64,000 nt of DNA, taken from the NCBI GenBank assembly GCA_016125455.1, contig WGLS01000004.1:124001-188000 (forward strand), in the 5' to 3' direction. Made by a program: the position numbers and the translations under genes. The notes under the pieces were generated by a model, which did no database searches, had not been told where the DNA came from, and saw only the letters and a list, made by a program, of their open reading frames with translations. Below, piece after piece: positions 4,623 through 13,133 of the stretch; the first letter of the stretch is position 1; every line of letters starts with the position of its first letter. Source of the DNA: Alphaproteobacteria bacterium. Its GTDB lineage: Bacteria > Pseudomonadota > Alphaproteobacteria > Caulobacterales > Parvularculaceae.

Positions 4623-5054
4623 ATGGTCGACGCCGAGACCAAGAAGATGACAGGAAACCTTCTCTTCGATCTTGCAATTTCGCTTGGCGCGGTAGCCTTG
4701 CTCGTTGTTCTTTCAGTTTTGCTTGGCGGCCTTCGCAATGCCGAGGTTACGCTAGATAGCGCCGTGGCGCGTGCACGTCTCGATGAGCCGGATTTTGAAG
4801 CTGAGGAGTGGCTCATCGACCGGGAAGGGCGGGCAGCGGTCGCTGTTTCGGGCAAGGGAGAGGCTCTCCTCGCCTTTGCCGTCGGGGACCGGATCGCGAC
4901 CCGGCGGGTGCTCTTGCAGTCTGTTGCCGCGGCGGCGGATGGAAAATCGCTCCGCCTGGCCGTTAAGGATTCAACGGTCCCGGTATTCTCCCTTGCCGCC
5001 AAAGATACCGCCACGGCCATGAAATGGCTTGGACACTTTTCCGGCCCCGACTAA
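4623..5054 (+). CDS. Small membrane-anchored protein, function unknown
   Basis: A 143-residue protein that I do not recognise. One hydrophobic segment near residues 11-35 (LLFDLAISLGAVALLVVLSVL) would anchor it in the inner membrane, followed by a soluble domain of about 105 residues rich in Ala, Val and charged residues. The start is uncertain: ATG at 4623 or at 4647, both with weak ribosome binding sites. Upstream in-frame sequence overlaps the end of the TonB receptor and is not protein-like. Its stop lies 10 bases before the desaturase-family gene, so the two are probably co-transcribed. Confidence 0.6.
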   Translation: MVDAETKKMTGNLLFDLAISLGAVALLVVLSVLLGGLRNAEVTLDSAVARARLDEPDFEAEEWLIDREGRAAVAVSGKGEALLAFAVGDRIATRRVLLQSVAAAADGKSLRLAVKDSTVPVFSLAAKDTATAMKWLGHFSGPD

Positions 5055-5064
5055 ATTGGCGGTC

Positions 5065-5991
5065 ATGGAGTTTCCAGACGTCGTCACCATGGCCGTTCCG
5101 GCCTTTGTCGTTCTGATCGTCATCGAGATGGTCGCCTGGCGTCTGTCGGGGCGGGGCGACTATGAGGCCCGTGACAGCGCCGCCAGCCTCATTATGGGGC
5201 TGGGCAGCCAGATCGCACCATTATTCGGCGGCGCCGCGATTGTCGCCGCGATCCTTTTCGCGGCGTATGAATTCAGGATTTTCGAGGCGCCAAACACTTG
5301 GTGGGCGGTCGCGCTTTGCTTTGTCGTTGACGACTTTAGATACTATTGGTGGCATCGGATAAGCCACGAACGTCGCTGGTTTTGGGCTAGCCACGTGATC
5401 CATCATTCTTCTCAGCACTACAATCTGACGACGGCTTTGCGTCAGACTTGGACTGGTGCGGTGCTGGGGGCCCTGTTGTTCAAGGCGCCTTTGGCCGTTC
5501 TTGGCTTCCACCCTCTCATGCTCGCCTTTGTCGGCGGGCTAAATCTTGTCTATCAGTTCTGGATCCATACCGAGATGATTGGCCGGCTCGGCCCCCTCGA
5601 ATGGATCATGAACACGCCGAGCCATCATCGCGTCCATCACGCGACCAACCCGCGCTATCTCGACGCAAACTACGCGGGAACATTCATTTTGTGGGATCGT
5701 CTGTTCGGAACATTTATTCCAGAGGATCAAGATGAGCGCCCTCGGTATGGCATTATCAAGAACCTCGGCACGTTCAATCCGGTGAAGATCGCGTTCCACG
5801 AATGGATTGGAATCGCTCGGGACGTGGTTCAAGCCAGGTCATTTCGCGAGGCGCTCGGTTACGCTTTCGGCCCTCCAGGATGGTCGCCGGACGGCTCGCG
5901 CATGACATCGAAGATGATCAAGGCCCGAGCTGCGAAATTTGACGCCGACAAGATCCCCGCGTCGGATCTTCAGAGCCTTCCCGCCGAGTGA
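5065..5991 (+). CDS. Sterol desaturase / fatty acid hydroxylase family protein
   Basis: An integral-membrane di-iron oxygenase of the FA_hydroxylase superfamily, 308 residues. The family's histidine clusters are all visible: HRISH (residues 97-101), HVIHH (110-114) and HHRVHH (187-192), separated by hydrophobic membrane spans. Such enzymes hydroxylate or desaturate lipids, sterols, hopanoids or carotenoids at the membrane. The substrate here is unknown, although a carotenoid locus lies only about 1 kb downstream. A TTG start 12 codons earlier (5029) is possible; I prefer the ATG at 5065 because it avoids overlapping the preceding small gene. Confidence 0.88.
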   Translation: MEFPDVVTMAVPAFVVLIVIEMVAWRLSGRGDYEARDSAASLIMGLGSQIAPLFGGAAIVAAILFAAYEFRIFEAPNTWWAVALCFVVDDFRYYWWHRISHERRWFWASHVIHHSSQHYNLTTALRQTWTGAVLGALLFKAPLAVLGFHPLMLAFVGGLNLVYQFWIHTEMIGRLGPLEWIMNTPSHHRVHHATNPRYLDANYAGTFILWDRLFGTFIPEDQDERPRYGIIKNLGTFNPVKIAFHEWIGIARDVVQARSFREALGYAFGPPGWSPDGSRMTSKMIKARAAKFDADKIPASDLQSLPAE

Positions 5992-6143
5992 TGGAGCGCC
6001 GACCTCGGCGGAACCGCCCGAAATTCGCCTCACTCGCCGTCACATCGCCTTGAAGCGATCTTTTAACCGCCAACTCAAGCCGTCAAATGCGACACGTGAA
6101 GCCGATGCGTTCCATCGGCGCTGCGGAAAGTGGAGACGGTATT

Positions 6144-6698
6144 ATGTCCGAACGGCGGAAGATTGGTCGACTTGAGCGGATTGCGATGCCTGCGCTGATA
6201 AGCGCGTTCGCAGCTGGCGCTGCACTGGCTGCCGTCGGCGAGAATCAGCCCGCCTATGGAGCCGCTATTTCAACCTTGACGGGTGCTGACGTCAAAGCTC
6301 ACGCTGCAGCGCTATTTTCACAGGCGGACCTCGATAATTCAGGCACTTTGAGCGCTTCTGAGTTTGCGGCCGCATCGGTCGTCACCGCTGAACTTGCTCG
6401 CTTGAATGGCTTCGCTGCAGTGAACGCATCGGACGGATCGCTTCGGACAATTGCTATCGACCATCAACTCGATGCGACACTAGCTGCATCCGAAAAGGAG
6501 CGTCTAAAGGCAGTTGCCCTGCGTGATTACTACGCCGCCTCGGGCGCCGACGGCGAACTGCAACAAGATGAGTTCGTTTCATACCAGCGTGCGAAGTTTG
6601 AAAGGTTCGACCTGAATGGCGATGGCGTGCTGCGTCGGCATGAACTGAAGACATTTGCGACGTTCGTTGCCGGCATGCCAGTCACGACGTCGGCCTGA
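6144..6698 (+). CDS. Exported EF-hand calcium-binding protein
   Basis: A 184-residue protein with a hydrophobic segment at residues 15-31 (signal peptide or N-terminal anchor). Two canonical EF-hand loops are present: DLDNSGTLSASEF at residues 62-74 and DLNGDGVLRRHEL at 156-168. A third, weaker loop-like stretch (GADGELQQDEF) lies near 134-144. It probably binds Ca2+ in the periplasm; the partner is unknown. The ATG at 6144 has a GGAGA site 8-12 bases upstream and is preferred over 6087. Its 3' end faces crtD, with 73 bases between the stops. Confidence 0.8.
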   Translation: MSERRKIGRLERIAMPALISAFAAGAALAAVGENQPAYGAAISTLTGADVKAHAAALFSQADLDNSGTLSASEFAAASVVTAELARLNGFAAVNASDGSLRTIAIDHQLDATLAASEKERLKAVALRDYYAASGADGELQQDEFVSYQRAKFERFDLNGDGVLRRHELKTFATFVAGMPVTTSA

Positions 6699-6771: not shown

Positions 6772-8277
6772 TCAACTCGCCGATTGGAACCCTTCCATCG
6801 CCTGGGCTGCGGCGAGCCGTCCGGACATTGCGGCCATAGGAACCCCTGGGCCAGGGTGTACGCTTCCTCCGGCGACCAGAAGCCCTCGTATGTGCGTCGT
6901 TGCGCCGGGCCGGTCGAGCGCGCCTGTCATGCCATGGCATGTCCGGCCATAGAGAGCGCCGCCGGTCGCCGGGAACCTGCCATTGAATTCCGACGGCGTC
7001 GCGAAGACGGGCGCGGTGGTTGTATCGTCAATTGATAATCCGCAGGCTGACAGGAGATCTATGGCGCGCTCGAACGCCATTGCCGCGTCAACTGTCGAGA
7101 TGTCGCCATCCGGCGGAGCGTTCATCAACAGGAATAGCCGTTCCGGGGACGCCGAATTTTCAGCGCCGCCAGATGCGCTAGCGGCGCGATCCTGTGCGCA
7201 AAGGTAAACTGTCGGATGCTGAGGCAGGCGACGCGATCGAAAAATCGCATCAAACTCGTCTTTATAGAAATCATTAAAAAAAACGTTGTGAAACGCAAGC
7301 TGAAACCCCGACGGCCGCGCATGCATGCACGCGGTGACCGCCGACAGGGAACGCCTGACACGGGGGGTCGGTTGGAGGCCGCGTCCTACTGACTTGCCGA
7401 GCAGGCCCTCTGCCAGCGCGGAACGGTCGCCGTTGAATATGACGATATCCGCCTTTAGGGCCTTCGAGTTGGCAAGACGCACGCCTGCGACGCGCTGGCC
7501 ATTGACGATGATGTCTTCGACTGTCGAATTGAAGGCAAATTCGACGCCAAGCGATTCCCCGAGTCGGCGCATCGCCGTCGCAACGGCGCCCATCCCGCCC
7601 TCGACCGACCAGACGCCCGTTCGCTCCGCGTGAGCCACCAGCATGATTGTCGCCGGCGTATCAAATGGCGACGAGCCTACATATGTCGCATACCGACCGA
7701 ATAGCTGAATGAGCCGGGGATCGTCGAAGTAGCGGCCAAGGGCCTCCCAAAGCGAGCGCATCGGATCTATCTTCGCCAGGAATGATGGCATCGAGAGGAA
7801 TCCTACTCGCTGCAAGACATCCAGCCGCGAGGGCTTGCGCCCCTTCATGAAAGCATCCCTGAGAGTGTTGTAAATCATCTCGCTTCGTTCGGCGAAGCGA
7901 ACGTACCCGTCGGCGTTCTTGCCGCCAGCAAACGCGGCAATAGCAGCGGCGCTCCGGTTAACATCCGCAAACAGATCGAGCTGTGCGCCGCCGCGCCAGG
8001 CGTGGCGGGCCAGCAAATCCTCTTTTCGCAGCGTCAGATAATCTTCGACGGACGCGCCGGCCGCGGCGAACAGTTCATCGAAAACCCATTTCATCGTGAA
8101 GACCGTCGGCCCGGCGTCAATCGCCGTGTCTCCGATCCGTTCCACGCGCATCTTGCCGCCGACGACTTCGCTGCGCTCGACGACGGTGACTGCAACGCCC
8201 CGACGTGCAAGGTCAATCGCCGCGGCAAGGCCGCCGGCCCCTGCGCCGACGATAACGGCGCGAAGTGGGGCGGTCAC
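6772..8277 (-). CDS. crtD: 1-hydroxycarotenoid 3,4-desaturase (CrtD-type phytoene dehydrogenase family)
   Basis: FAD-dependent carotenoid desaturase of 501 residues, membrane-associated. The N-terminal dinucleotide fold VIVGAGAGGLAAAIDLARRG occupies residues 9-28 and is followed by GGKMR. The stretch DAGPTVFTMKWVFDELF is characteristic of CrtD rather than the phytoene desaturase CrtI, and the C-terminal flavin-binding segment GGSVHPGPGVPMA is intact. CrtD introduces the 3,4 double bond next to a 1-hydroxylated acyclic end group. Its start overlaps the stop of the DUF2306-like gene by 4 bases, indicating translational coupling. No crtC hydratase, crtI, crtB or crtE is present in the window, so the rest of the pathway must lie elsewhere. 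Confidence 0.88.
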   Translation of the reverse strand: MTAPLRAVIVGAGAGGLAAAIDLARRGVAVTVVERSEVVGGKMRVERIGDTAIDAGPTVFTMKWVFDELFAAAGASVEDYLTLRKEDLLARHAWRGGAQLDLFADVNRSAAAIAAFAGGKNADGYVRFAERSEMIYNTLRDAFMKGRKPSRLDVLQRVGFLSMPSFLAKIDPMRSLWEALGRYFDDPRLIQLFGRYATYVGSSPFDTPATIMLVAHAERTGVWSVEGGMGAVATAMRRLGESLGVEFAFNSTVEDIIVNGQRVAGVRLANSKALKADIVIFNGDRSALAEGLLGKSVGRGLQPTPRVRRSLSAVTACMHARPSGFQLAFHNVFFNDFYKDEFDAIFRSRRLPQHPTVYLCAQDRAASASGGAENSASPERLFLLMNAPPDGDISTVDAAMAFERAIDLLSACGLSIDDTTTAPVFATPSEFNGRFPATGGALYGRTCHGMTGALDRPGATTHIRGLLVAGGSVHPGPGVPMAAMSGRLAAAQAMEGFQSAS

Positions 8278-9038
8278 GGCGCCGGGCTCGCGAAAGGCGA
8301 TTGGGCGGTCCCCTTGAAGCGCAGTCGAACGGAACGCTGATGGTAGAGAATAAGCCCCAGCCCTATGGTCAACGGCGTCGCCCAGAGTATGGGGGCGAGG
8401 GCGAGCTCCGGGACGAGCCTGACTGCGCCGAATGCAAAAAAGGCCGTGTACACTGAAATGCCGGCGCCGACGCCGGCTTTGATATGTTCGAGAAGCCAGT
8501 CAGCTGGCCCCGGCGATGATTTCAGCAGGAACGCCGCATTTGTGGTGACGGTTGCGAATCCAATCGTGGAAATGCCTATCATGATAGGTTGATCGATCCT
8601 GACGCCTTCGATCAGACACGCGCCAGCAGCGATCAACAGCGCCGCCTGCAGGAAAATGTTCACAGGACCCACATTTCGCGAATGGTCCAACTTGTTCCTT
8701 GGGCAAAGCCAGCCATACCATGCCAGGTTGATCGTCAATAGTGCGAGATGCAACATCATCACGCCAAAGATCCCGCGCACAAGTATCGGATCGGAGAACG
8801 CCGGATGATCGACGAGGTGGGGGTGAGTCGCCATCGGCGCAAGCATCGTCATGGTCGCCATCGCTATGGCAAAGCCGCCGGTGATCAACATCGCCACGGC
8901 AAAGAAACGTCCGAGCATGCGGTGCCGAGCGCCGCCCTTTTTCGTTGCGACGGGGCCCCAGAAGCCAAGCAGACCGGGCGCGCCGGTGATGATGTGTCCG
9001 GCGATAAGGAATTCAAATATTGCATGGCTGGACAGCAT
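8274..9038 (-). CDS. Polytopic membrane protein, DUF2306-like, coupled to crtD
   Basis: A 254-residue integral membrane protein with roughly six to seven hydrophobic spans. The N-terminal region contains conserved-looking polar residues within membrane context: AGHIITG near residues 13-19 and GGARHRMLGR near 35-44, a pattern resembling the DUF2306 family. That assignment is from memory and is moderate. The gene overlaps crtD by 4 bases (ATGA), so the products are made together. The substrate of CrtD requires prior 1,2-hydration and no hydratase gene is visible, so a role in carotenoid end-group modification is possible but unproven. The start codon lies 77 bases from the divergent P450 start. 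Confidence 0.75.
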   Translation of the reverse strand: MLSSHAIFEFLIAGHIITGAPGLLGFWGPVATKKGGARHRMLGRFFAVAMLITGGFAIAMATMTMLAPMATHPHLVDHPAFSDPILVRGIFGVMMLHLALLTINLAWYGWLCPRNKLDHSRNVGPVNIFLQAALLIAAGACLIEGVRIDQPIMIGISTIGFATVTTNAAFLLKSSPGPADWLLEHIKAGVGAGISVYTAFFAFGAVRLVPELALAPILWATPLTIGLGLILYHQRSVRLRFKGTAQSPFASPAP

Positions 9039-9053
9039 GAAGATTAGCTCGAT

Positions 9054-9078
9054 AAGTTGCGCAAGATGCCTGCAACTT
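9054..9078. promoter_or_regulatory. Inverted repeat in the divergent crtD-operon / P450 intergenic region
   Basis: Perfect 7-base arms AAGTTGC (9054-9060) and GCAACTT (9072-9078) separated by 11 bases. An 8-base palindrome TTGCGCAA (9057-9064) overlaps the first arm. It sits in the 77-base gap between two divergent genes, which is where a shared operator would be expected. No regulator is known for it; the call is positional inference. Confidence 0.35.
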
Positions 9079-9115
9079 GCGCCAGCCGGCGCACCGAGGA
9101 AAGCCTTTTATCGAC

Positions 9116-10591
9116 ATGGATGGGCGGATGCGAAACACCGTACACGGCGCGCCGCCGCAATCCGTCGTTCATTCTCCCGCAGGCGGCGAAACATTCCGCG
9201 ACGACCGGTACGCGCCGCCGCGGCCGTCGCGATTGCCTGCGATCGCAGCGCTCTGGCGGACAATCCGGCAGGGAGATGGCGACCTGCTTAGTCTCTTGCC
9301 TGGCGAAGCGTTTTCTATGGATGCGGGCGAGCTCGGCTATTCCCGACGATCGATCAAGCTCTTCAATGACCCCGTTCTGGTTCGTGAAATCATGCTCGAC
9401 CGTGAAGGCGTGTTTCCGAAGAGTGACCTGATGGTGGGTGCGCTGGAACCCTTGATCGGCGACTCGATCTTCGTGTCCGACGGACCGAAATGGCGCCGTC
9501 AGAGGGCTATGGTCGAGCCCGCATTTACGCGACTGCGCCTTTCCGCCGCGTTCGGATCGATGGAAGCTGCCGTCGACGCCGCGGTCCTGAATCTTGAGGA
9601 GAAGGCGTCGACCGGCGAAGAATTTTCCCTTGACCTGTTCATGAGCAAGCTTGCCGCAGACATTATTTGCCGGACGACATTCTCGGTATCGCTTGAGGCG
9701 GATATCGCGAGTGAGGTGTTTGAGGCCTTTGAGGTGTTCGAACGTGAAGTCGCGCAAGTGCGAATCTGGCGGCTCATTATTGATCCCGCCTGGACGCGTC
9801 CGCGTCAATCTCCCGCTGTGCTCGCGGCGTGCGAAAAAATCCGACTGCGGATTGGTGAATTGGTCGATCGGCGAAGCGGTCGGGAAAAAGACTTCTTCGA
9901 CGACATTGCAAGAGCTGTCATCGACGCGCGCGACAGTGCTACCGGCGAGGCGTTTACGCGCGAGGAGCTTATCGATCAGCTCGGCGTATTCTTTCTGGCC
10001 GGTCACGAAACGACGGCAAGCGCCTTGACCTGGGCGTTCTTCACCCTCGCACAACATCCATATTCCCTCGAGCGCCTGCGGCGCGAAACCCGGGAGGTCG
10101 TTGGCCATAGGCGAATTGATTTCAAGGACATCAAGGCGCTGGACTATGCCAAGGCTTTCTTCAAGGAGACTCTTCGTCTCTTCCCGCCGATAACCTTCAT
10201 GCCGAGGGTCGCAATGAAGTCGACGCGGATTGGCAGATTTCACGTCAGGCGAGGGACGTTGGTGATGATTGCGCCCTGGACAATTCATCGCCACGAGAAA
10301 TACTGGCATGACCCGGACGCATTCGACCCAGGCAGGTTTCTTCCGCCAAAAGATGAAACGCTGGTTGACGGCGCTTACTTGCCTTTTGGTCTCGGACCAC
10401 ATACATGCGTTGGCGCAGGTTTCGCCGCCGTTGAAAGCGCGCTCATCCTTGCGAGCATAGCCCGGCATTTTGACTTTGAAATCATTCGCCCAGAGAGTGT
10501 CCGCCCGGCGGCTCGCTTGACTACGCGTCCGGCTGAGCAGGTTATTTGCCGCGTGAGACGCCATATTTCACATGATCGTGTTCATCATTAG
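9116..10591 (+). CDS. Cytochrome P450, candidate carotenoid-tailoring monooxygenase
   Basis: A complete P450 of about 491 residues. The I-helix oxygen-activation motif AGHETTAS lies near residue 295, the K-helix ExxR motif (KETLRLFPP) near 350, and the heme-binding loop FGLGPHTCVG puts the cysteine ligand near 430. The layout resembles the fatty-acid/carotenoid-hydroxylating bacterial P450s that lack a fused reductase. Its position between crtD and crtY suggests a carotenoid substrate (ring or chain hydroxylation), which is inference. Electron partners are not encoded nearby. ATG 9116 is chosen; a TTG at 9077 and an ATG at 9128 are alternatives. The 3' end overlaps the convergent ATP-grasp gene by 50 bases. 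Confidence 0.9.
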   Translation: MDGRMRNTVHGAPPQSVVHSPAGGETFRDDRYAPPRPSRLPAIAALWRTIRQGDGDLLSLLPGEAFSMDAGELGYSRRSIKLFNDPVLVREIMLDREGVFPKSDLMVGALEPLIGDSIFVSDGPKWRRQRAMVEPAFTRLRLSAAFGSMEAAVDAAVLNLEEKASTGEEFSLDLFMSKLAADIICRTTFSVSLEADIASEVFEAFEVFEREVAQVRIWRLIIDPAWTRPRQSPAVLAACEKIRLRIGELVDRRSGREKDFFDDIARAVIDARDSATGEAFTREELIDQLGVFFLAGHETTASALTWAFFTLAQHPYSLERLRRETREVVGHRRIDFKDIKALDYAKAFFKETLRLFPPITFMPRVAMKSTRIGRFHVRRGTLVMIAPWTIHRHEKYWHDPDAFDPGRFLPPKDETLVDGAYLPFGLGPHTCVGAGFAAVESALILASIARHFDFEIIRPESVRPAARLTTRPAEQVICRVRRHISHDRVHH

Positions 10592-11804
10592 CGGGAGTGG
10601 AAGCTGGTTCTAGACTGCTTGTAGTCGCCTTCGAGGCAATGACGTTGTTGAACGCGTTAACTGAGTCGCGTGTTGGAGGAGCGGTCCAGGCAAGATCCGC
10701 AGTCGCCGCCTCGCCGAAACTCTGTTTACGGAGAAGCGCGCCTATCAGAAGGCGCCAGGACATCGGCGTCATCAGGAAAAATGGCAGTGGGTCGTCGAGG
10801 CGAAAAAGTACGTCTTCCGAACGGGCCATATTTCGCAGATGGCCAAGAAATCGCTGCGGCTTGAATAGGTCTTTATAGGCCATGGTTAGCGCCGTATGGC
10901 CCTCCTGAAAGGCCGTTTGCCGTTTCAGCCGGACATGTCCCCTAAACGCGCAGTCGAGGGCGGCAGCGGCAACGTCATCGTCGACCATGAAATGGATTCC
11001 CGACGTCATGCGTGGATTGCACTCTATCGGCCATGCGATGCCGTTCTGATCTTCGATGAAGTCAAAGCCAATGAACCCTGTATATTTTTCAGCGGCGACA
11101 AAGTCCCTTGCCCAATGTTCCGCGTCCGCCGCATCGTCCACGCGCTCGAAACAACACGCGACCGAGCCTGCAAGAATGAGCCCACGATAAACGACGGTGC
11201 CAAGTGTTCGCCCGTTTCTGGCGATCGAGAATGATGATAGCTCCCGACCGTAGATGCGGCGCTGCAGCACCATGTGGGGCGCGTTTTCAGCGGCGCTCAA
11301 TGGCGTTCCTGCCTTCTTGAGCGACAGTCCCTTCCCGGAGCACCCATTCAATGGCTTCACTACATAGTCGCTCTTGTCGACAAATTGCCGGGCTTCTTCT
11401 GTGTCCGCAGCAAACGTGTCCGGCGCCTTCAGGCCGTGATTGCGAGCAAGGTCTATGAACGCATGTTTGTTGTGCAATTGTATCAACGAATTGGCGGTTG
11501 GAGAAAACATGCGTTCGCCGAGGCGCTCCTTAAGCGGCGCGACGTGCAGAATTTCCTCCGAGACAGGAAAGACATGGTCAATCTTGTGCTGATCGATAAT
11601 GCGCCACAGGGCGTCGGCATAAGCTCCGGAATCCGACGCTGGCGGCGGCAGGCCATGTCGCCGGGAGACGGATCTGGAAGGCCTCGACAAATGGCTTCTC
11701 CAGGGGTCGGCGACGTGCACCTCCGCACCCGCTTTGCTCAGCGCTCTCGCAAGTTCGAGGGCCTTTGGCAGTCGACCAAGCGTCAAGAGGACTTTCTCGC
11801 GCAT
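10542..11804 (-). CDS. ATP-grasp family ligase in the carotenoid locus
   Basis: A 420-residue protein with the architecture of carbamoyl-phosphate-synthase-like ATP-grasp ligases. An N-terminal Rossmann-like domain (LLTLGRLPKALELARALSKAG) precedes the nucleotide-binding segment YVVKPLNGCSGKGLSL, which carries the conserved Lys and Gly-rich loop. The metal-binding end of the fold is FIGFDFIEDQNG followed by IECNPRMTSG, with Glu and Asn expected to bind Mg2+. Such enzymes join a carboxylate to an amine, thiol or hydroxyl through an acyl phosphate. The substrate is unknown. ATG 11804 has an AGGGGA site 5 bases upstream and is preferred over in-frame starts further upstream. It is transcribed divergently from crtY. 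Confidence 0.82.
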   Translation of the reverse strand: MREKVLLTLGRLPKALELARALSKAGAEVHVADPWRSHLSRPSRSVSRRHGLPPPASDSGAYADALWRIIDQHKIDHVFPVSEEILHVAPLKERLGERMFSPTANSLIQLHNKHAFIDLARNHGLKAPDTFAADTEEARQFVDKSDYVVKPLNGCSGKGLSLKKAGTPLSAAENAPHMVLQRRIYGRELSSFSIARNGRTLGTVVYRGLILAGSVACCFERVDDAADAEHWARDFVAAEKYTGFIGFDFIEDQNGIAWPIECNPRMTSGIHFMVDDDVAAAALDCAFRGHVRLKRQTAFQEGHTALTMAYKDLFKPQRFLGHLRNMARSEDVLFRLDDPLPFFLMTPMSWRLLIGALLRKQSFGEAATADLAWTAPPTRDSVNAFNNVIASKATTSSLEPASTPANDEHDHVKYGVSRGK

Positions 11805-11868
11805 GATTCCCCTAGATCCCACGTTCGACGATTCCTGCCTCATCAGAATGCGCGTGAGCCAAGTTGGC

Positions 11869-11884
11869 GTCAAACGCGGTTGAC
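11869..11884. promoter_or_regulatory. Inverted repeat overlapping a -35-like hexamer between ATP-grasp gene and crtY
   Basis: GTCAA (11869-11873) and TTGAC (11880-11884) form perfect 5-base arms with a 6-base spacer. The right arm is part of TTGACA (11880-11885), which matches a sigma-70 -35 element on the plus strand, but I see no convincing -10 at the right distance. It lies in the 138-base gap between divergent genes. A repressor or activator site for crtY is possible; chance occurrence cannot be excluded. Confidence 0.28.
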
Positions 11885-11942
11885 AGGCGACCGGGTGGAT
11901 GCTCGGGGGTAGGTGGCCTATTGATGGGTTTTGGAGCCGCTC

Positions 11943-13133
11943 ATGGCGCAATCAGGATTGTTTGACGTGGTGATAGCCGGCGGCGGGCTGTCCGGCTCCC
12001 TTATCGCCTGGCGACTCGCGCAGGTGCGTCCGGATCTCGCAATTGCGCTGGTGGAACGAGGGGAGCGCCTTGGCGGCAATCATACCTGGTCATTTCACTC
12101 GACCGATGTGCCTGCAGAGGTCGCGACATGGCTGGCGCCGCTGGTCACCTATTCCTGGGACCGACAGGAGGTCCGGTTTCCGCGACAAAGCCGCTTGCTG
12201 CGAACCGGCTACCGTTCGATTACGTCCGAACGACTTCACGACGTTATTGCGCCGGCGCTCGGAGAGGCAGCTTTTTTCAATGCGGAGATTGTCAATCTGT
12301 CCGCATCCGGCGTGACGCTTGGCAGCGGCGAGCGACTTGAAGGCCGCGCCGTTATTGATGCGAGAGGACAGAGGAACAACCGGGCGCTGACCGTCGGGTT
12401 CCAGAAGTTTGTAGGACAGGAAGTTGAGTTTGAGACGCCCCATGGTCTGCGCAATCCGATCATAATGGATGCGACTATCTCCCAGTCAGATGGCTATCGA
12501 TTTATATACGTACTGCCGTTCTCGGCCACGACGGCGCTGATCGAGGATACCTACTACGCCGATGGCGCCAGCATCGATCATGAAGGCGCGCGCCGGGGAA
12601 TACGCGAATACGCTGATAGCTGGGGTTGGCGAATCAAGCGCGTCGTCAGGGAAGAAGAAGGCATTCTGCCAATTGCGCTCGCAGGCGATATTGAAGCCCA
12701 CCTCGCCGATGTGCCGGACGGGGTCGGCGTTGCAGGGTTGTGCGCTGGGCTTTTCCATCCCTTGACGGGATACTCGCTGCCTGACGCTGCGCGGCTGGCC
12801 CACAGAATTGCCGGAGCGGAAGATCTTTCCGGCAAGGCGATAGCAGCATTGACCCGGGGGCACGCTGACGAAGTCTGGCGCGAGCGCGCGTTTTTCCGGC
12901 TTCTTTCGCGATTGCTCTACTATGCTGCGACGCCATCCACCCGGTACAAAGTGCTTGCGAGGTTCTATCGCTTGGGCGAACCCCTGATCGAGAGATTCTA
13001 CGCAGCGCAATCGACACAGGCCGACAAGATGCGCGTTCTGGTGGGCAAGCCGCCGGTGAGTTTTCTTCGCGCGATGGAATGCGTCGATGAGGACCGTTGG
13101 TTGGAACAGTGTTGGAACCGGAGCGTCGCCTAG
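11943..13133 (+). CDS. crtY: Lycopene beta-cyclase, CrtY type
   Basis: Flavoprotein that cyclises psi ends of lycopene-type carotenoids to beta-ionone rings at the membrane. The 396-residue length is normal for CrtY. The N-terminal fold VVIAGGGLSGSLIAWRLAQ is followed by the family motif GNHTWSFH near residue 45; the C-terminal motif FHPLTGYSLPDA near 270 is also diagnostic. ATG 11943 has GGAG 6 bases upstream (11933-11936) and is preferred to the TTG at 11931. The stop is 7 bases from the stop of the convergent lpxR-like gene. Presence beside crtD suggests a monocyclic carotenoid with one beta ring and one 1-hydroxy-3,4-didehydro end (inference). Confidence 0.93.
   Translation: MAQSGLFDVVIAGGGLSGSLIAWRLAQVRPDLAIALVERGERLGGNHTWSFHSTDVPAEVATWLAPLVTYSWDRQEVRFPRQSRLLRTGYRSITSERLHDVIAPALGEAAFFNAEIVNLSASGVTLGSGERLEGRAVIDARGQRNNRALTVGFQKFVGQEVEFETPHGLRNPIIMDATISQSDGYRFIYVLPFSATTALIEDTYYADGASIDHEGARRGIREYADSWGWRIKRVVREEEGILPIALAGDIEAHLADVPDGVGVAGLCAGLFHPLTGYSLPDAARLAHRIAGAEDLSGKAIAALTRGHADEVWRERAFFRLLSRLLYYAATPSTRYKVLARFYRLGEPLIERFYAAQSTQADKMRVLVGKPPVSFLRAMECVDEDRWLEQCWNRSVA

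Follow-up and report, generated by a model that had tools for sequence, protein, structure and literature searches.

A conserved gene module of anoxygenic phototrophs with a probable role in carotenoid tailoring

Which pigment is made where a carotenoid desaturase gene stands beside genes for a membrane protein, a cytochrome P450, an ATP-grasp ligase and a lycopene cyclase? The question is raised by a five-gene block in a 64,000-nucleotide stretch of DNA (the window; C33:124001-188000, contig WGLS01000004.1) from the 3.6-Mb genome of an alphaproteobacterium of the Parvularculaceae. The reading favored here, with moderate confidence, is that the block represents a carotenoid-tailoring module which is conserved among anoxygenic phototrophs, most of them aerobic, and consists of crtD, the membrane protein, the P450 and usually the ATP-grasp ligase. 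The module is kept as a unit, co-occurs with the reaction-centre genes, is frequently found within photosynthesis gene clusters (PGCs) and retains its catalytic motifs. An initial annotation of the window had also proposed a carotenoid-tailoring locus, which is borne out, because the P450 gene and those of the membrane protein and CrtD occur together, in most cases with the ATP-grasp gene; the association with phototrophy was overlooked. The five genes, all with intact open reading frames, have exactly the coordinates and strands of that annotation:

6772-8277, minus strand: crtD, 1-hydroxycarotenoid 3,4-desaturase (NF045637; in the clade of membrane-gene-coupled CrtDs)
8274-9038, minus strand: DUF2306-like multi-pass membrane protein (GTGA overlap with crtD; orthologues conserved beside the P450)
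9077-10591, plus strand: cytochrome P450 (PF00067; divergent from the membrane gene)
10542-11804, minus strand: ATP-grasp ligase (PF02655; open reading frame opens at 11951)
11931-13133, plus strand: crtY, lycopene beta-cyclase (TIGR01789; lineage-specific neighbour outside the conserved module)

Conservation of the module

Conservation was assessed in 100 related genomes and in a scan of named genomes that comprises 80 loci with P450s of 54-73% identity. Orthologues of the P450 are defined by at least 54% identity, with the next matches among the 100 relatives dropping to 36%, and are present in 11 of these relatives. The membrane gene, P450 and ATP-grasp gene are contiguous in all 10 non-window genomes that harbor the orthologue, and a CrtD of the block type adjoins them in eight. 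The 80 loci span the Alpha-, Beta- and Gammaproteobacteria, with Halieaceae, Stappiaceae, Hyphomonadaceae, Acetobacteraceae, Rhodocyclaceae and Nevskiaceae among the families represented. The grouping of the genes is far beyond chance, because the pair of membrane gene and P450 recurs in all 75 testable loci. An ATP-grasp gene is the direct neighbour of the P450 in 58 of 73 loci, a crtD is found no more than 10 kb away in 64 of 80, and crt or bch genes are seen in 46 of 49 full-length loci. The PGC itself contains the block, between crtB and crtI, in several related genera. Across the fetched loci, a crtY next to the module is confined to the window and a congener (G002/L054). The expected co-occurrence of five families in related genomes therefore holds for the P450, membrane protein, CrtD and usually the ATP-grasp ligase, and not for crtY. 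No match to the P450 was found in plasmids. The records L070, L081, L084 and L120 bear the titles Candidatus Sulfopaludibacter, Acidobacteria and Klebsiella pneumoniae, which look wrong for loci of Hyphomonas or proteobacterial type.

The composition of the module varies among lineages. One genome (G226) has the P450 and membrane gene with no adjoining ATP-grasp gene. Seven Halieaceae genomes (G337-G342 and G344), several of them small or incomplete, contain no ATP-grasp homologue genome-wide and keep the membrane gene and P450; conjugation is therefore probably not essential to the P450. In 13 Halieaceae loci (L091:11334-11729 and 12 others), an open reading frame of 131 amino acids overlaps the 3' end of the P450 gene, exactly in the place held elsewhere by the ATP-grasp gene. 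A gene of the fatty-acid-hydroxylase superfamily lies near the block in the window (5029-5991, plus strand), and a homologue of 39-49% identity adjoins the P450 in the Halieaceae clade without ATP-grasp; it may be a coincidental neighbour or a lineage-specific partner. A related phototroph (G090) lacks the P450 and carries the membrane gene (53% identity, L172:1608-2294) in its PGC, located between bchO and crtI, so this gene may also act independently of the P450 in concert with crt genes.

Association with phototrophy

The distribution of the pigment genes shows that the host is genetically equipped for anoxygenic phototrophy and that the block, which has a crtD to itself, forms a carotenoid locus apart. 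A PGC at ∼51-68 kb of the same contig contains bchI, bchD, bchO, crtC, a second crtD, crtE, crtF, bchC, bchX, further bch genes and pufL/M, and ∼63 kb separate it from the block, whose module is at ∼131-137 kb. No crtI or crtB is present in this cluster (C33:50001-70000, stretch L159); both are found on contig C11, together with a second crtE and a CrtZ-like gene (L040:10701-11210) called from its sequence. The module of the window is not inside the bch/crt/puf cluster of its own genome, and in many relatives it is inside the PGC.

The relatives that encode pufLM and those that encode crtD (43% identity or more) are exactly the same 16 of 100. The P450 and ATP-grasp genes are present in 11 of these 16 reaction-centre-bearing relatives versus none of the other 84 (Fisher 3e-11, a P value that serves only as a guide since it ignores the shared ancestry of related genomes). 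Of 240 genomes sampled across the class, four have the P450, all of them phototrophs, and two of the four P450s are of a sister type linked to crtA. The two sets combined place the P450 in 14 of 31 reaction-centre genomes versus 0 of 306 others. Across several classes, 24 of 25 module genomes tested harbor pufLM; the remaining one is that of locus L073, in which a stop codon interrupts the ATP-grasp open frame as scored.

An unlinked occurrence of the P450 and ATP-grasp genes had been named as evidence against a carotenoid role. This is borne out in part: in three full 20-kb loci (L063, L073 and L107) the nearest 10 kb are free of crt and bch genes, yet the genomes of two of them (L063 and L107) encode reaction centres.

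Evidence for a carotenoid substrate

Three separate pointers, none of them proof, suggest that the substrate is a carotenoid. First, all 54 CrtDs encoded next to the membrane gene, including that of the window, fall into one clade (support 96/96), and the CrtD of the host's PGC falls outside it. Second, sister P450s of 48-49% identity are encoded directly behind crtA, the gene of the psi-end C-2 ketolase, in two other phototrophs; one of these loci is next to bchI-bchD-bchO and near crtI-crtB. The underlying P450 tree has no outgroups and is used only for the split between crtA-linked and membrane-gene-linked enzymes and for the identity gap (48-73% versus 36% or less). Third, the best profile match of the P450 among solved structures is CYP97A3/LUT5, a plant carotenoid hydroxylase (E 2.6e-64). 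Mutual exclusivity of CrtA and the module was considered and rejected, as a strong CrtA match was found in three genomes, and in two of them a sister P450 is encoded right beside crtA.

The family assignments in the window differ in firmness. CrtD scores 615.7 bits against NF045637, above the curated equivalog cut-off of 580, and CrtY 455.1 bits against TIGR01789 (cut-off 215.2). The P450 reaches 252 bits with PF00067, above the Pfam cut-off, and the heme-cysteine, ExxR and AGHETT motifs are kept in 11 orthologues. The ATP-grasp protein passes PF02655 with 36.6 bits (cut-off 23.2). Its K150 and ECNPR motif are invariant, with K150, E261 and N263 kept in 53 sequences. In the predicted model (predicted local distance difference test, pLDDT, 90.6) it has a full ligase fold with the ATP-site residues retained; the model aligns with 2pn1 at Z 25.0 (root-mean-square deviation 2.8, 277 residues aligned) and also with PurD, PurK, PylC and L-amino-acid ligase. 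The membrane protein is predicted to be all-helical (pLDDT 92.9), and a fold search with its model gave no significant match. Its DUF2306 label is only weakly supported for the window copy, which scores below the cut-off (PF10067, 10.8 bits, E=0.55, gathering cut-off 31.6), and finds matches in nine of 11 orthologues (best E 3.5e-5), so that the name, weak as it is, appears better founded in the orthologues.

The gene boundaries also bear on the organization of the block. The stop codon of the membrane gene and the start codon of crtD share a GTGA overlap, by which the two genes are translationally coupled. The P450 probably starts at the ATG at 9116 or 9128, and the ATP-grasp protein most likely at 11804 and not at 11951, because the orthologues begin there. 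The P450 and ATP-grasp genes are convergent, with a 50-bp tail-to-tail overlap. Just downstream of crtD, positions 6087-6698 (plus strand) encode an EF-hand protein with a lanmodulin match below the cut-off (E 4.9e-9).

A proposed pathway and its difficulties

Judged from gene content, the four genes crtD, membrane protein, P450 and ATP-grasp probably make a not-yet-described carotenoid. CrtC would hydrate and CrtD desaturate an acyclic psi-end to give a 1-hydroxy-3,4-didehydro end, which is established chemistry of these families (PMC10604819). We infer every step after CrtD. The P450 would use O2 to oxygenate this psi-end or its methyl group, leaving the main chromophore without enlargement, and the membrane protein may help in substrate handling or in positioning the P450 and CrtD within the membrane. 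In lineages that have it, the ATP-grasp ligase would activate a carboxylate with ATP and join it to an amine or hydroxyl group, yielding an ester- or amide-type conjugate. In the host genome, CrtY and CrtZ may put a beta ring on the other end of the carotenoid. Oxygenation at C-2 by the P450 would fit a myxol-type diol, but the P450s encoded next to crtA speak against simple redundancy with CrtA.

Several observations weigh against the module reading. Luminiphilus and Chromatocurvus are reported to contain only bacteriochlorophyll a (BChl a) and spirilloxanthin by ultraviolet (UV)/visible spectra (PMC3679898), and both carry the module (L115 and L109). Because these spirilloxanthin spectra are unshifted, any product of the module would have to be minor or spectrally silent, and a major product must keep the spirilloxanthin chromophore. 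The P450 is dispensable for the basic pathway, since five of the 16 related phototrophs lack it and their sampled clusters keep crtD and crtF, with crtC in at least three; PF07143 misses the phototroph-type CrtC, and its six matches are not used as evidence. Furthermore, no PpsR/CrtJ-type motif (TGT-N12-ACA) is present in the promoter of the window module, and in relatives the motif is not clearly enriched (4 of 68 regions versus 1.2 expected).

A more specific form of the proposal is tentative. The P450 might oxidise a spirilloxanthin-type psi-end or methyl group to an alcohol or carboxylate, to which the ATP-grasp ligase couples an amino acid, another acid or an amine, giving an overlooked class of conjugates in reaction-centre-bearing Alpha-, Beta- and Gammaproteobacteria. 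Such a class would have been overlooked because it is invisible to UV/visible spectra. The carotenoid conjugate of the initial annotation survives in this form as a possibility and not as a general rule, given the seven Halieaceae genomes without the ligase. The polar unidentified pigments of Congregibacter KT71 were considered as a module product and are not adopted; the KT71 authors deem carotenoids unlikely for one type.

Alternative explanations

Foremost among the alternatives, though unlikely, is that one molecule is the substrate of both CrtD and CrtY, giving a monocyclic carotenoid of the myxol or saproxanthin type; the P450 would hydroxylate it (at C-2, for instance, replacing CrtA-OH) and the ATP-grasp ligase would conjugate it. 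The host does have crtC, crtD, crtF, crtZ and crtY, a search of its genome with the CrtA model NF045923, though not with CrtA-OH, gave no match, and both members of the window lineage have crtY next to the module. In Nonlabens, the myxol 2-hydroxylase is CrtA-OH (PMC11855829); with no CrtA match in the host, this step would be open for the P450. However, almost all module loci lack crtY, so monocyclic substrates are not what the module evolved for. In the two phototrophs with a sister P450 beside crtA, a further C-2 oxygenase would also be superfluous. The crtY-based product of the initial annotation thus finds no support as a general rule, the settings beyond the window and its congener being mostly acyclic crtC/crtD/crtF PGCs.

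Ranked next, and likewise improbable, is that the P450, membrane protein and ATP-grasp ligase serve bacteriochlorophyll, a quinone, a hopanoid or a lipid of the photosynthetic membrane, with crt genes nearby only through the shared PGC. The association with reaction centres is indeed stronger than the adjacency to crt genes, as loci L063 and L107 illustrate with pufLM elsewhere in their genomes. Against this stand the common ancestry of the crtD genes that are coupled to the membrane gene, the crtA-P450 arrangement and CYP97 as the best structural relative. The host module is also away from the bch/puf cluster, yet beside crtY and a second crtD. A P450 that simply acts as a beta-ring 3-hydroxylase in place of CrtZ, with an unrelated ATP-grasp gene, would suit the CYP97A3 similarity and the nearby crtY and is very improbable, as a CrtZ-like gene is already present in the host, crtY is missing from module loci elsewhere, and the ATP-grasp gene adjoins in most loci.

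Significance

P450s that modify carotenoids are of a known kind; what is new is their conserved module in phototrophs. The carotenoid genes vary more than any other part of PGCs (PMC12654162), for which only classical crt genes are listed in the literature checked; no description of a P450, DUF2306-like protein or ATP-grasp ligase in a PGC was found in the open-access papers searched. The module is common to Halieaceae (Luminiphilus and Chromatocurvus), Roseibium, Hyphomonas, Roseomonas-type and betaproteobacterial phototrophs. This distribution suggests an incomplete picture of the pigments made by a large group of light-using bacteria in oceans and fresh water. The module may also account for the crtD outside the PGC noted in Halieaceae (PMC3176799), because crtD accompanies the module in many of them.

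Comparison with known systems

Each component of the module has relatives in known systems. The ATP-grasp protein shares the full-length fold (Z ∼23-25) and ATP-site residues of the carboxylate ligases 2pn1, PurK, PurD, PylC and L-amino-acid ligase, from which it differs in being only ∼12-18% identical; no carotenoid-linked ATP-grasp carboxylate ligase turned up among the papers searched. The P450 resembles the CYP97 hydroxylases (LUT5/CYP97A3), its closest solved structures by profile, in its heme motifs. The relation is distant, and the plant enzymes act on beta rings, whereas the module context usually supplies acyclic carotenoids.

Two pathways offer the closest comparisons. The spirilloxanthin/spheroidene pathway (crtC, crtD, crtF and crtA) uses the same crtD family, its PGCs often contain the module, and a sister P450 occurs beside crtA. 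In contrast, the consulted passages of the review of this pathway (PMC10604819) name no P450, DUF2306-like protein or ATP-grasp ligase, and the review describes CrtA as an enzyme that is not a P450. The flavobacterial myxol pathway (CrtY, CruF, CrtD, CrtA-OH and CrtZ) is matched in the host by CrtD and CrtY and, at another genomic site, by a CrtZ-like gene. Unlike that pathway, the host has a 1,2-hydratase of the CrtC type and no CrtA match, with the P450 and ATP-grasp ligase as additional components.

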